Part shown: positions 13,573 to 21,528 of the stretch, piece by piece
How the letters are laid out: the number at the start of each line of letters is the position of its first letter
How positions within the stretch are numbered: the first letter of the stretch is position 1
Origin: a virus
Direction: 5' to 3' (one strand)
Virus record (IMG/VR): IMGVR_UViG_3300042939_000090
Span: 1-34,973 of that record
Length of the DNA stretch: 34,973 bases
Notes under the pieces: generated by a model
What the model saw: the letters and a program-made list of their open reading frames with translations, nothing else
The model's database searches: none
What the model was told of the DNA's origin: nothing
Position numbers and translations under genes: made by a program

Positions 13573-14961
13573 ATGGAACAACAAACACTTTTTGAAGAAA
13601 ACGTAGAACTTATTTATGTTGAGTCGGTAATAGGTTCGGGCTATGAAACACAAGTAGCTGAATTAGCATTAATTGATAAAATTGCATATCGTGCCGCACG
13701 AAAGAATATGCAAAAACATTCAGCCATTATACTAAAAATAGATGGTGAGTTTGCCGGGTTTATGACATTTGAGGTAAACCATAAGGTAGGGGAGTTTTGC
13801 CTTTTACAGTCGGCTATGTATCCCGAAAAAAAAGACAAGCGTATTTATAGTATGATGGTGCAAAAAATTATAGACCAAAATACTTATGGCTACCATATGA
13901 TTATGACTGTATCTAAAAAACACGATTTAGAAAACCCTAAAGTATTTGCAGCGTTGGGCTTTAAAGTAAATTTAGAAAAAAGCGAATTTGTTTATATGTA
14001 CTATGGTACTGAACAACAAGTAAGGGTTAAAAGGTTATGCCATATGGCTATGACTAATCTATGGCTATCTACATCGGGCGAATGGCTGAAGGTTAAAAGG
14101 GAGTGGAACGAAAAATTAGAAGCCGCAGGGTTAAAGTATAACATACCTAATCCTAAATTTGCAAGCCGTGAGGGCTGTTGGCAGGGTAAGGCAGGTATGT
14201 CTAACATAGTGCTGTCTAAACAAAAGGTAGAAGATGGCGAAATAATTACCGACTCCTCAAAAGACCTAAACGGAAACGCATCTGTATTAGACCCTACCGC
14301 TTGTGAAATAATCGTTAGAATGTTTATGCCTACCAATGGTTGCAGGGTTTACAATCCTTTTGGTGGTGGTGTTCAAATGGGTTTTGTAGCCGGTGGCTGT
14401 GGGTATGAATATCTATCAAGCGAAATAAGGCAAAACCAATGTGATGCAAATAATGCACTATGTCAAGACTATTACAATGTAAAGTGGATACAGTCCGATA
14501 CATCTAAATTTGTACCCAAACAAAAGTACGACCTTATATTTTCTTGCCCCCCCTATTACAAGGTAGAAACATATTTAGACTATGATGGTAAAGCACCTGA
14601 GGGCGAACTAAATTCATTACCTACATACGAAAGTTTTAGGGATATGCTTTTTAAAGGCTATAAAAATGCTATTTCAGTTATGAATGATAACACTTTCTTT
14701 GTTGTAATGACTGGTGATAGCAGGGATAAAGACGGTGGGTATTATGGTAGCGATGCTGAACATGAATTGTTTTTTAAAGAGCAAGGGTTACACATATACA
14801 ATAAAATCATTTATTTAGAAAGTGAGTTTACTCGTAGGGCAACAGCTAAGAAAACATTAAACAGTCGAAAATACCCAAAATGTGAGCAGCGTATTTATGT
14901 GTTCTACAAAGGTGATACGTCTAAAATAAAAGATTTATACCCAAATATAGGTAGGTTATAA
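13573..14961 (+). CDS. Fusion of GNAT-like domain and amino-DNA methyltransferase
   Basis: A 462-residue two-domain protein. Residues 30-145 look like a GNAT acyltransferase fold: IILKIDGEFAGFMTFEV (52-68), GEFCLLQSAMYPEKKDKRI (73-91), a long helix, then NPKVFAALGFK (121-131), the usual last GNAT helix and strand. This part is reminiscent of Mu Mom-type DNA-modifying GNATs. Residues 235-455 are a Rossmann methyltransferase: VYNPFGGGVQMGF (259-271) as motif I and SCPPYY (324-329) as the catalytic motif IV of N6-adenine or N4-cytosine enzymes. It overlaps the radical-SAM-like gene by one base. DNA modification is likely; the chemistry of the GNAT part is unknown. Confidence 0.75.
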   Translation: MEQQTLFEENVELIYVESVIGSGYETQVAELALIDKIAYRAARKNMQKHSAIILKIDGEFAGFMTFEVNHKVGEFCLLQSAMYPEKKDKRIYSMMVQKIIDQNTYGYHMIMTVSKKHDLENPKVFAALGFKVNLEKSEFVYMYYGTEQQVRVKRLCHMAMTNLWLSTSGEWLKVKREWNEKLEAAGLKYNIPNPKFASREGCWQGKAGMSNIVLSKQKVEDGEIITDSSKDLNGNASVLDPTACEIIVRMFMPTNGCRVYNPFGGGVQMGFVAGGCGYEYLSSEIRQNQCDANNALCQDYYNVKWIQSDTSKFVPKQKYDLIFSCPPYYKVETYLDYDGKAPEGELNSLPTYESFRDMLFKGYKNAISVMNDNTFFVVMTGDSRDKDGGYYGSDAEHELFFKEQGLHIYNKIIYLESEFTRRATAKKTLNSRKYPKCEQRIYVFYKGDTSKIKDLYPNIGRL

Positions 14962-15779
14962 TGAGGGAATATTCTAATAAAATATCTCTAACTAAAAACT
15001 CAAGAGGTATATATAGTTTAGATACTATTATTGGTTGTAATAGCGGCATGGCAAATGAGATAGGAGGGTGTTATAATGATTGCTATGCTGCTAAATCAGC
15101 TAAACTATATGGGTACGACTTTAGTAAAAATGTTAATCGGTATTTTGAAAGCGAAAAGCAAAGGTTAAGTATAGTTAAGGCTATTAATAAAATACCTTTG
15201 CCATTTGTTAGAATAGGCACAAGTGGCGACCCGTCCGAAGACTGGCAGCATACTATTAACATATTAGAGGGCATTAAAACCTGTAACAAAGAAATAGTTA
15301 TAATTACCCGGCATTGGCAAAATTTAACTGATATACAATTAGAAAAAATACAAAGTCTTAATGTTTGCATAAATACAAGTATATCAGCCTTAGATAATGA
15401 GAATGTATTAAACAATTGTCTTGCTCAATATAACAGGATAAAGCCATTTTGTAAATCAATTTTAAGGATAGTTAGCTGTAATTTTAATTTAGAGAATAGC
15501 ACAGGACATAAACTATTTAAAATACAAAAAGAACTATTTGAAAATGAGTCTGTAATTGATACTGTATTAAGGGTAAACAATAAAAATAGGTTTGTTAAAG
15601 AGGGAATTATAAAAGTTGAAAAAACTAAATTCTTAGGTAAGAATGCACTGGTAAGTAAGTACAATAAAAGCACCTATTTTGATAAGTGTTCAACTTGTTT
15701 TGAAATGTGCGGTGTTAATGTAAAATCTGACAATGAAAAAAAGCGTTCAAACGTTCAACTTAAAATGTTTAAAAAATAG
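14961..15779 (+). CDS. Radical-SAM-like protein with two cysteine clusters
   Basis: A 272-residue protein, coupled to the methyltransferase fusion by a one-base overlap. C26, C37 and C41 (GGCYNDCYAAK) form a Cys-x10-Cys-x3-Cys cluster, and the CYxxCYA pattern recalls the DUF5131/phage Gp37-Gp68 branch of radical SAM proteins, though the spacing is not the canonical CX3CX2C. Barrel strands follow: FVRIGTSGDPSEDW (82-95), EIVIITRHWQNLT (111-123), LNVCINTSISALD (133-145). A second cluster, C243, C246 and C250 (KCSTCFEMC), near the C-terminus may hold another iron-sulphur site. Codon use seems more AT-rich than neighbours. Possible DNA-base hypermodification with its partner, an inference. Confidence 0.6.
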   Translation: MREYSNKISLTKNSRGIYSLDTIIGCNSGMANEIGGCYNDCYAAKSAKLYGYDFSKNVNRYFESEKQRLSIVKAINKIPLPFVRIGTSGDPSEDWQHTINILEGIKTCNKEIVIITRHWQNLTDIQLEKIQSLNVCINTSISALDNENVLNNCLAQYNRIKPFCKSILRIVSCNFNLENSTGHKLFKIQKELFENESVIDTVLRVNNKNRFVKEGIIKVEKTKFLGKNALVSKYNKSTYFDKCSTCFEMCGVNVKSDNEKKRSNVQLKMFKK

Positions 15780-16913: not shown

Positions 16914-17688
16914 TCAATTAAGCGTTATAACGCAAGACCGTTACAAGCTAATGCAAACCCCGGCAGAGCAAAAGATGTTATTGCTGATGGATAGTGCCAA
17001 AGCAATACACACCGACTTAACAGCCTATGGTGATTTGGTTTCTATTCTTCATCACTACACCTACGGTAAAGTAACAGAAGAACAAGAACAAGATTTAACC
17101 GTTCAAGCCCGTGATTTAAAAGAGGAAATTAAAAAGCATTTCCCGTCAATCAGTTTTGAAGAGGTTAAAATTGCGCTTAATAACACTATAAGGAAAGTTT
17201 ACGGGGACTTTTACGGGCTAAACATAGTTACATACCACAATGGCATTAAAAGCTATTTAAACGCAGCCGAAACGCTAAACACTAAAAAAGCGGTACAGGC
17301 AAGGTTAAGTCAACAATATATTGTTGAGCCAACCCCCGAAGAAAAAGAAGCTATAAGCCAAGCGGGTTTTGAAAGAATAAAAGCCAAAGTGTTAGCCGGG
17401 GAAAGCATAGTTGATGATATGGGTGCAATAGGCTGTTACAACTGGCTAAAGAAAAAAGGAACGCTTAACGGAGTAATGAGTGAACAGGAACGTGATGCAA
17501 CTAAAGAACGTGCTACTGATTTATTACACGCTGAATATACAGCTAAGGCAAACACGCTAAACAAAGACGTAAGGCGTGAGGCATTAAAAAAAGCCCAGGA
17601 CTTAACATCGGGTTTATTAGAAAACGATTTAACATCACTTTGCAAAAAACTTGCATTGGAGTGTTTAATAAAACAAGGTAAGATATGA
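16903..17688 (+). CDS. Conserved phage protein, probable replication accessory
   Basis: A 261-residue, mostly helical protein starting MNNSQLSVITQDRYKLMQT. There is an early region (LVSILHHYTYGKVTEEQEQD, then ARDLKEEIKKHFPSISFEEV), a middle IRKVYGDFYGLNIVTYHNGI segment, and a long charged helical C-terminus (KANTLNKDVRREALKKAQDL). The YGLNIVTYHNGIKSYLNA block recalls a family present after DUF1376-like genes in Bacteroidota phages. No Walker motif or nuclease motif is visible. Position between the organiser-like gene and the cytosine methyltransferase suggests a replication role, unproven. Confidence 0.5.
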   Translation: MNNSQLSVITQDRYKLMQTPAEQKMLLLMDSAKAIHTDLTAYGDLVSILHHYTYGKVTEEQEQDLTVQARDLKEEIKKHFPSISFEEVKIALNNTIRKVYGDFYGLNIVTYHNGIKSYLNAAETLNTKKAVQARLSQQYIVEPTPEEKEAISQAGFERIKAKVLAGESIVDDMGAIGCYNWLKKKGTLNGVMSEQERDATKERATDLLHAEYTAKANTLNKDVRREALKKAQDLTSGLLENDLTSLCKKLALECLIKQGKI

Positions 17689-19100
17689 GAGTATTAAGTT
17701 TGTTTGATGGAATGTCGTGTGGAAGATTAGCCTTAGCAGATGCGGGTATTAATGTAACAGAATACCACGCAAGCGAGATAGACCAACACGCTATAAAAGT
17801 AACAAAAGCTAACTGGCCCGACACCGTACAACTGGGCAGCGTAGTAAATGTAACCGTAAGCCAACACTACGACTTATTAATTGGTGGAAGCCCTTGTCAG
17901 TCGTTTAGTTTTGCAGGCAAGCGGAAAGGTATGGCTACTAAAGATGAGCAAGAAATATTAACACTATCTCATTACTTACAACTAAAAGCCGATGGATATG
18001 AGTTTGAGGGGCAAAGTTACTTGTTTTGGGAATATGTGCGCATACTGCAAGAGTGTAGAGAAATCAACCCAAACATAAAATTTCTTTTAGAAAATGTGCT
18101 GATGTCTGAAAAATGGGAAAGGGTTATAACGCAAACAATGGGAGTTAAGCCGATACAGATAAACAGCGCATTGGTTTCCGCACAAAACAGAAATAGGTTA
18201 TACTGGACAAACATAGGCCTGCAACCACAGGGCTTATTTGGTTTTGAAGAAAGCATTATTAATCAACCAAAAGATTGTGGAATACTGCTGAAAGATATAT
18301 TAGAAACCAACGTAGCCGAAAAGTATTATTTGAGTGATAAGATGCTTAATTGGCTTAATAAACATGCAGATAAGAGGCAGGTTGATGTAAAAGAGTTAGA
18401 CGGAAATCAAAAATCAGCTTGTTTAACATCGTCTGCATTAGTAAAACAAAATTTATCAACTGATTATATACGAACTGTAATACAATTAAATTCAAATACC
18501 GAAAGCGGGGGGCAACAGCCCTATCAGCAAAACAGAGTATATAGCCCCGATGGTATAAGCCCCGCCCTTATGGCACAAATGAGTTGCGGCAGCCATGCTA
18601 TTATAGAAGATACCCAATGTGTTGCTATGAGAGGGCCTGCTGCTATACTTACACCAAAACGTACAGAGTATGGCAAACAAGTGCGTAAGGCATACGAGGC
18701 TGGCGAGTTAAAAACAGAGCGTAAAAATATACAGCAGTTAGAACCCCGCAACGACGGCAAAACCAATACCTTAACAAGCGTACAAAAAGATAATTTGGTA
18801 ATGCTCAATGAAAATCAAAAAAACAAATTTAAACCCAATGTAAATACTGATAAAGCCAATACACTAACATTGGCACAAGGCCGTATGGGCAGCTCAAGCG
18901 AGTATATGGATAGTGTAAGTAAAATATATGCTTTAACAAGCCGCATACGCCGCCTAACCCCTACCGAGTGCGAGCGATTGCAAACAGTACCCGATGGCTA
19001 CACAGCCCACGTTAGCGATACTCAACGATATAAAATGCTTGGTAATGGGTGGACTATAAAAGTAATATCACATATCTTTAGTTACATTTTAACCCCCTAA
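17685..19100 (+). CDS. C5-cytosine DNA methyltransferase
   Basis: A 471-residue enzyme transferring a methyl group to C5 of cytosine. All main motifs are present: LSLFDGMSCGR (4-14, motif I), GGSPCQSFSF (67-76, motif IV with catalytic C71), LLENV (134-138, motif VI), QNRNRLYW (167-174, motif VIII), RRLTPTECERLQ before the end (motif IX) and LGNGWTIKVI (motif X). Between VIII and IX lies a long target-recognition region. No restriction partner gene is nearby, so it most likely protects phage DNA from host restriction. The start overlaps the previous stop as ATGA. Confidence 0.93.
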   Translation: MRVLSLFDGMSCGRLALADAGINVTEYHASEIDQHAIKVTKANWPDTVQLGSVVNVTVSQHYDLLIGGSPCQSFSFAGKRKGMATKDEQEILTLSHYLQLKADGYEFEGQSYLFWEYVRILQECREINPNIKFLLENVLMSEKWERVITQTMGVKPIQINSALVSAQNRNRLYWTNIGLQPQGLFGFEESIINQPKDCGILLKDILETNVAEKYYLSDKMLNWLNKHADKRQVDVKELDGNQKSACLTSSALVKQNLSTDYIRTVIQLNSNTESGGQQPYQQNRVYSPDGISPALMAQMSCGSHAIIEDTQCVAMRGPAAILTPKRTEYGKQVRKAYEAGELKTERKNIQQLEPRNDGKTNTLTSVQKDNLVMLNENQKNKFKPNVNTDKANTLTLAQGRMGSSSEYMDSVSKIYALTSRIRRLTPTECERLQTVPDGYTAHVSDTQRYKMLGNGWTIKVISHIFSYILTP

Positions 19101-20360: not shown

Positions 20361-20473
20361 AAGAAATTTTAATCTATACATACATAGTTGCAACGGTTTT
20401 AATATATGCTGCGGCTATAGTATTGTTTTACAAGTGGTATTTGTTTGATAAAAGAAACAACCCGTTTAAATGA
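20357..20473 (+). CDS. Small membrane protein, 38 residues
   Basis: ATG at 20357 overlaps the sigma-like stop (ATGA), and its own stop overlaps the GT4 start (ATGA). It has one membrane span (YTYIVATVLIYAAAIVLFYK) followed by a short basic tail (DKRNNPFK). The double coupling supports translation. It could anchor or modulate the sigma-like protein or the glycosyltransferases; this is a guess. Confidence 0.5.
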   Translation: MKEILIYTYIVATVLIYAAAIVLFYKWYLFDKRNNPFK

Positions 20474-21528
20474 AAATCTTAGGAGTTGAACAGAACAAAT
20501 CAGGTAGCAACTATTATCGGTTGGAGATGCCATTTCAGCATTTAACGCAAACAACGGATATAGAGTATGCCCGGTGCAACACTATTAACGGAATGCCTAA
20601 TGAGGTTTTGCAGCAATTTAATGCAGTAATTTTTAGCAGGGAGTTTGAACACCACAATGATGTTAAAAACATAAAACTAATAGCAGACCAATTAAGAACA
20701 TTAGGAGTAAAGATAATAGTTGACATTGATGACTATTGGAACTTATCAGCGTTCCACGTTTTAAAAGAACAGTACCGAATATTTAAGGCACCTGAAAAGA
20801 TAATAGAGAGCATCAAGTATGCCGACCTTGTTACGACAACCAATGTTCAGTTAGCCGAAAAGATAAGCAAACTGAACCACAATGTAGAGGTTTTGCCAAA
20901 TGCTATTTATCCCGAAATCTACCCACAATTCCAACCTAACTATGTGCCAGGGGATAAGTACCGAATAGGTTATATGGGTGGCGTATGCCATTGGGAAGAC
21001 GTTGTACTTATGCAAGATGGGTTTAAACAACTACACGCTGATAGGGAATTACAAGGTAGGTTTACCGTTAAGCTATTTGGGTATAACGATGAAAGCCCAG
21101 AGTACGGAAGATTTGAGCAAGTGTTTACCGATAGGGGTAGGGGCAAAGATTATGAGAGGGTTTACGCTACTGATGTTTACAACTATGCTTTAGGGTATAA
21201 CCATTTAGAAGCCTGTATTGTTCCGCTAAACGATAACACTTTTAACAACTGCAAGAGTGAGTTAAAAATGATTGAAGCGGGGTTTATGGGTAAGGCTTGT
21301 ATAGTATCTGATATTAAACCGTATACCGATGTAATTAAAAATGGTGTAAATTGCATTGCTATTGATAAGAACCGCAATCACAAAGATTGGTACAAGGCAA
21401 TGCGTAAGCTGATTAACGAACCTGACTACGGAAAGTATTTAGCCGATAACCTAAGCAAAGAAGTAAAAGAGAAATACCATATATCAAAAGTTAATATTAA
21501 CCGCTATAAACTATTAAAATCATTATGA
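20470..21528 (+). CDS. Glycosyltransferase, GT4-like (GT-B fold)
   Basis: A 352-residue protein. The N-terminal part starts MKILGVEQNKSGSNYYRLEM, with VKIIVDIDDYW (79-ish to 90) and a short region ADLVTTTNVQLAEKI; then EVLPNAIYPEIY, a mark of GT4 enzymes, leads into the second domain, YRIGYMGGVCHWEDVV, and ends with the sugar-nucleotide site CKSELKMIEAGFMGKACIVS, with the E-x7-E-like pattern. The enzyme should transfer a sugar from a nucleotide donor. It starts a cassette with GT2 and FkbM enzymes. The acceptor (virion protein, DNA base or host surface) is unknown. Confidence 0.8.
   Translation: MKILGVEQNKSGSNYYRLEMPFQHLTQTTDIEYARCNTINGMPNEVLQQFNAVIFSREFEHHNDVKNIKLIADQLRTLGVKIIVDIDDYWNLSAFHVLKEQYRIFKAPEKIIESIKYADLVTTTNVQLAEKISKLNHNVEVLPNAIYPEIYPQFQPNYVPGDKYRIGYMGGVCHWEDVVLMQDGFKQLHADRELQGRFTVKLFGYNDESPEYGRFEQVFTDRGRGKDYERVYATDVYNYALGYNHLEACIVPLNDNTFNNCKSELKMIEAGFMGKACIVSDIKPYTDVIKNGVNCIAIDKNRNHKDWYKAMRKLINEPDYGKYLADNLSKEVKEKYHISKVNINRYKLLKSL

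Follow-up and report, generated by a model that had tools for sequence, protein, structure and literature searches.

A conserved unit of two genes occurs in many uncultured phages and probably makes a DNA base modification beyond methylation, by a chemistry that we infer. The unit was studied in a virus record from IMG/VR, 34,973 bases long, all of which was analysed and is referred to here as the window. On balance, we favor the reading that the two genes specify a phage-encoded, self-contained enzyme for post-replicative DNA base hypermodification, composed of three modules: a GNAT-fold domain, an amino-methyltransferase domain and a radical-SAM protein. This reading is supported by the pairing of the genes in 79 of 80 viral loci, single-chain fusions, replacement of one partner, the folds, and the replication and recombination setting, as well as by the fact that the methyltransferase family is otherwise a phage ParB-methyltransferase family. 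Phage DNA hypermodification is already known as a means of counter-restriction, and what appears to be new is the occurrence of radical SAM, GNAT and amino-methyltransferase as one unit. No description of this combination was found in the open papers searched, a scope outside which most subscription journals lie.

The window contains terminase, portal, Erf-type annealing protein, YqaJ-type exonuclease and RusA-like genes, and no isolate phage similar to its first 25 kb was found at the megablast level. The features of the gene pair are as follows.

13573..14961, + strand: gene 1, a GNAT-fold domain fused to an amino-methyltransferase domain, 462 aa (phrog_498 and phrog_12517 over the C-terminal part).
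14961..15779, + strand: gene 2, a radical-SAM-fold protein of 272 aa and the partner of gene 1 (adjacency to or fusion with gene 1; fold).
13597..14016, + strand: GNAT-fold domain, residues about 9-148 (AlphaFold model, PDB matches).
14185..14949, + strand: amino-methyltransferase domain, residues about 205-459 (phrog_498 match to residues 205-459; PF01555).
14353..14370, + strand: motif I NPFGGG, residues 261-266, expected to bind SAM (invariant in 75 relatives).
14542..14559, + strand: motif IV SCPPYY, residues 324-329 (CPPY invariant in 75 relatives and in ParB-methyltransferases of 30% identity).
15036..15083, + strand: C26-x10-C37-x3-C41, proposed ligands of a [4Fe-4S]/SAM cluster (invariant in 71/71 relatives; position in the model).
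15687..15710, + strand: C243-x2-C246-x3-C250, a possible second metal site (invariant in 71/71 relatives).

The two open reading frames, both on the + strand, have one base in common (gttataatgagg). This one-base overlap and the positions of the four motifs (NPFGGG 261-266, SCPPYY 324-329, C26/C37/C41 and C243/C246/C250) are as an earlier note on this DNA had given them.

To assign the N-terminal domain of gene 1, residues 1-168 were folded with 40 relatives using AlphaFold. The model (pLDDT 84.1, pTM 0.79) has its elements in GNAT order. Foldseek returned 320 PDB matches at E <= 0.001, of which the top match was an aminoglycoside 6'-acetyltransferase (E 1.7e-6) and the second GCN5, and the PDB matches obtained with VIA had Z scores of 13.8-15.5 across about 130 residues. 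Results from this modelling confirmed that the predicted structure of the gene 1 N-terminus has the fold of the GNAT superfamily, which the earlier note had described as GNAT-like. An uncharacterised 464-aa viral protein in BFVD is 66% identical over this domain. The acetyl-CoA loop motif [QR]xxGx[GA] (strand 4/helix 3) was found in 0 of 75 sequences, so that use of acetyl-CoA by the domain is not supported and the domain may be inactive; other residues are invariant in the family (YRAARxNMQ, NH, CLLQSAM). Mu Mom (PF25680) is a GNAT-fold DNA modification enzyme, and the earlier note had invoked it as a precedent. The gene 1 domain resembles Mom in having a GNAT fold but has no sequence relation to it: no match to PF25680 was found, and profile comparison gave a probability of 0.1 percent. 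Homology to Mom was therefore rejected. A search of 50,697 isolate phage records did not detect the GNAT domain, and a search of two phyla of bacterial genomes yielded nothing beyond loci already known.

The C-terminal part of gene 1 matched the phage DNA methyltransferase families phrog_498 (E 1.2e-38) and phrog_12517 (E 3.6e-39). The window protein matched PF01555 at E 0.0092, which is under the Pfam cut-off, and 13 of 15 relatives matched this profile, with a best E of 4.3e-6. NPFGGG and CPPYY are invariant among 75 relatives. With motif I, an [X]PPY motif IV and a family profile, gene 1 has the features that define the N6/N4 amino-methyltransferases, and its C-terminal domain is assigned to this type from sequence, as the earlier note had proposed. 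The nearest relatives of the domain in isolate phages are mostly ParB-methyltransferases of about 30% identity, with CPPY in common. We considered CPPY as a possible mark of altered chemistry and rejected it, because the motif is present in all aligned ParB-methyltransferase relatives. Credible relatives of solved structure were not found by sequence for gene 1, gene 2 or their profiles; pentatricopeptide and APH matches were short or weak and were discarded as chance. In the isolate phages P2559S and ZRG1, an AdoMet decarboxylase gene follows a methyltransferase of this family, and in AlanGrant, Pam4 and ZS04 a PLP enzyme is fused to, or follows, one. Our comparisons suggest that the methyltransferase family is an apparent chassis with swappable chemistry partners.

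The search of Pfam with gene 2 matched no family, and PF04055 did not exceed the cut-off for gene 2 or its family. The family has two three-Cys clusters that are invariant across 71 relatives; the first, CYNDCYA, has the spacing C-x10-C-x3-C in the window protein, versus the canonical CxxxCxxC. The fold of gene 2 was taken from the homologous domain of a fused protein, L077, with the window protein included in the alignment. In this model (pLDDT mostly 90-98, residues 1-190), the domain forms the radical-SAM barrel, and the first Cys cluster lies past its first strand. The GNAT part of the fused model was of low confidence, and the domain arrangement was not read from it; alignment A4, which mixed fused with single proteins, was misaligned and was excluded. 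The best Foldseek matches of the L077 domain were the radical-SAM enzymes AprD4, EpeE and HydE, and all 50 of the matches listed by VIA were radical-SAM enzymes, ranked spore photoproduct lyase (Z 11.9), viperin (11.1) and PFL-activase (10.9). The first two are tied within 1 Z as the closest fold. Spore photoproduct lyase works on DNA, and it and viperin represent fold groups that act on nucleic acid or nucleotides. The DUF5131 profile (PF07505) gave a weak match to 1 of 33 gene 2 family members (E 0.001). Thus, the modelled fold confirmed that gene 2 is radical-SAM-like, albeit with a variant Cys spacing and outside the reach of the PF04055 profile. Structure prediction had been set beforehand as a possible refutation of the earlier note, and it found both the GNAT and the radical-SAM folds. 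Gene 2 was not detected in the 50,697 isolate phage records.

The association of the two genes was examined in 80 viral loci collected with gene 1 alone as the query. A radical-SAM gene was adjacent or fused to gene 1 in 79 of these, which bore out the co-occurrence that the earlier note had expected in other phages. Gene 2 lies directly downstream in 70 loci (68 of them with a 1- or 4-base overlap) and upstream in 2, and 3 loci (L076-L078) encode a single radical SAM-GNAT-methyltransferase chain. In the other four (L062, L070, L072 and L080), a different radical-SAM protein, type B, takes the place of gene 2; it carries CxxxCxxC, and the L080 protein matches PF04055 with an E of 2.6e-11. The lone exception, L075, is truncated at a possible site of the partner, the contig starting 3 bases ahead of gene 1. 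Reciprocally, gene 1 adjoined in all 80 viral loci kept from a search with the gene 2 profile. Five bacterial assembly contigs were also found, of which three (L101-L103; Desulfobacula, Desulfobacterales and Smithella) have the fusion and one is cut inside gene 2. In the fifth, at L100:7569-7835, all that follows the GNAT-methyltransferase is a C-terminal remnant of a type B radical-SAM gene; L100 is a decayed copy and the sole locus seen without an intact partner. Because a bona fide radical-SAM protein substitutes in the position of gene 2 in four loci, the function required there is that of a radical-SAM enzyme. The gene 2 and type B profiles aligned weakly, with the Cys region included (E 0.0024, probability 12%). 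The partner is the only near-universal neighbor of gene 1. The next commonest neighbors have roles in replication and recombination, as judged by eye from sequence, and the remainder of the window has little in common with the loci of its relatives.

Obligate pairing would equally suit an enzyme and its activator. We considered that the radical-SAM protein might be a maturase that installs a crosslink, an epimerisation or a glycyl radical in the GNAT-methyltransferase polypeptide, the DNA product being plain methylation. Peptide and protein modifiers are indeed among the fold neighbors (EpeE, SuiB, PFL-activase and anSME). We nevertheless regard this as unlikely, since the same GNAT-methyltransferase is served by two dissimilar radical-SAM types, type B is also found apart from gene 1 (one such locus was examined and has a different methyltransferase and a ParB gene nearby), and nucleic acid or nucleotides are the substrates of the two fold groups that score highest. 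A second explanation is that gene 1 carries out plain m6A or m4C methylation and that gene 2 is merely a co-transcribed DNA repair enzyme resembling spore photoproduct lyase, which is its top-scoring fold match; the match of the type B partner to phrog_9252, DNA repair photolyase, points the same way. However, co-transcription poorly explains the repeated fusion, the short overlap in nearly all tandem pairs and the replacement of the partner, and it leaves the GNAT domain without an explanation, so that we consider it improbable.

In the preferred reading, DNA base hypermodification, the methyltransferase domain would use SAM and bind phage DNA, from which it would flip out a base that carries an exocyclic amine, either adenine or cytosine. 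The radical-SAM partner would generate a 5'-deoxyadenosyl radical for the activation of a C-H bond, located in the base itself, in the methyl group newly added to it or in a small acid, and the GNAT domain would supply or shape the added group or act as a docking scaffold. The expected product is a base bulkier than m6A or m4C, which could block host restriction. The post-replicative model is the most economical one, given that genes for nucleotide synthesis were not seen in consistent linkage to the pair. The substrate could also be a protein or a small molecule, since viperin, PFL-activase and peptide maturases lie within about 1-3 Z among the modelled fold matches. As the unit has no other consistently linked gene, a single co-expression experiment with the pair might uncover a novel DNA base, and with it a radical-based way of making that base.

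The proposed outline of action resembles that of Elp3, in which a GNAT and a radical SAM cooperate on a base with acetate passing through a tunnel (PMC13315578), giving 5-carboxymethyluridine in tRNA (PMC7663514, PMC13315578); here a DNA methyltransferase would be added, and we do not claim membership in the Elp3 family. Like Elp3, the fused forms (L076-L078 and L101-L103) have a radical-SAM and then a GNAT domain in one chain, which in the window are encoded by separate genes. Unlike Elp3, the module includes a DNA-type methyltransferase, the Cys spacing C-x10-C-x3-C and a GNAT lacking the acetyl-CoA loop motif. Sequence searches gave no match to solved Elp3, and Elp3 was not among the fold matches listed for the L077 domain, which does not in itself exclude kinship. 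A more specific version of the preferred reading, that the unit is a DNA counterpart of Elp3 building a carbon side chain (e.g. carboxymethyl or acyl-derived) on a DNA base after replication from SAM and a common small metabolite, is possible but doubtful. Radical SAM plus GNAT being the architecture with which Elp3 makes cm5U in tRNA (PMC7663514, PMC13315578), the module might instead modify RNA, e.g. the tRNA of the infected cell, in an Elp3-like role with a different methyltransferase. We find this quite improbable, as the methyltransferase is of the N6/N4 DNA methylase type with ParB fusions as its phage relatives, and the genomic setting is one of DNA replication and recombination.

Other known systems share parts of the DNA hypermodification module that we propose. 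The phage fusions of ParB to an N6/N4 methyltransferase (phrog_498; Listeria phage B054 gp77 and Enterococcus phiFL3A gp36) have the same methyltransferase domain, with F(S/T)CPPY and 27-31% identity, but mostly have a ParB-type N-terminus where gene 1 has GNAT, and the gene that follows them carries no radical-SAM annotation in the records examined. In the phage CmoA/CmoX pathway, a methyltransferase homologue makes carboxymethylcytosine and has thus become a hypermodification enzyme aided by a partner in SAM chemistry (PMC12783734). CmoX differs in being a C5-cytosine enzyme that uses carboxy-SAM; radical SAM or GNAT is not mentioned, and the authors reported no candidate N6/N4 carboxymethyltransferases associated with CmoA (PMC12783734). 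Finally, the Thermus phages phiMa and Cumys carry a radical-SAM and DUF483 module, proposed to modify DNA, which is likewise a phage radical-SAM module fused to methyltransferase or radical-SAM domains; its partner is DUF483, GNAT is not mentioned, and its function is likewise only proposed (PMC11437467).

The earlier note had suggested that the module was acquired as a unit and had described its codon use as seemingly more AT-rich. The compositional claim applies to gene 2, the GC of which (29.3%, z -3.4) is the lowest among the 49 genes of the window, and not to gene 1 (36.1%, z -1.0). The acquisition claim was rejected for the window lineage because the two gene trees disagree and the pattern of identity changes where the genes meet. 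The window clusters with L001-L004 in the tree of gene 1 (support 0.93) but with L081, L082, L087 and others in that of gene 2 (support 0.96), and the two sets of tree distances from the window are not correlated (Spearman 0.05). At the junction, DNA identity drops from about 80% to about 67% for L002, and for L081 it increases just past this point. Conflicting trees, the identity switch and the extreme AT-richness of gene 2 indicate that the window lineage most likely exchanged its gene 2 by recombination, the breakpoint lying close to the junction (window 14950-15779); most likely the partner was exchanged and the function retained. Both genes are under purifying selection (e.g. versus L081, dN 0.258 and dS 2.3 for gene 1, dN 0.226 and dS 1.7 for gene 2). 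A module in which only the methyltransferase is active, the GNAT and radical-SAM proteins having degenerated into non-catalytic parts for DNA recognition, would fit the missing acetyl-CoA loop motif, but is very improbable given the low dN/dS, the invariance of six Cys and dozens of other residues across both proteins, and two Cys clusters that would be superfluous for mere recognition. Altogether, the earlier interpretation was partly supported, and DNA hypermodification stays the best candidate explanation of the pair.

Several further loci were noted. The window also encodes a C5-cytosine methyltransferase (17685-19100; PF00145, E 5.5e-36) and a group 1 glycosyltransferase (20470-21528; phrog_7162, E 8.5e-45), which may represent a separate cytosine modification or be unrelated; in relatives (6 loci each) they are unlinked to the gene pair. 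In Croceibacter phage P2559S (L179:5491-7132) and Pseudomonas phage ZRG1 (L183:3347-5192), the CPPY-type methyltransferase gene overlaps that for AdoMet decarboxylase, and aminopropyl transfer to DNA based on decarboxylated SAM is possible. The PLP enzyme (PF00291) is fused to or follows the same methyltransferase family at L187:1012-3501, L188:1093-3531 and L182:1-2275, loci that belong to Pseudanabaena phage Pam4, Erythrobacter phage ZS04 and Mycobacterium phage AlanGrant. At L159:4001-6789, a type B radical-SAM gene resembling spore photoproduct lyase lies by a C5-type methyltransferase, a ParB-like gene and a queuine-transglycosylase-like gene (phrog_887). Finally, true Mom genes are located elsewhere in two related phages, adjoining a ParB-like gene at L072:7958-9191 and L080:9854-11087 (PF25680, E 1.2e-46 for L072, on which the profile was tested), and both of these phages also encode the GNAT-methyltransferase and its type B radical-SAM partner.
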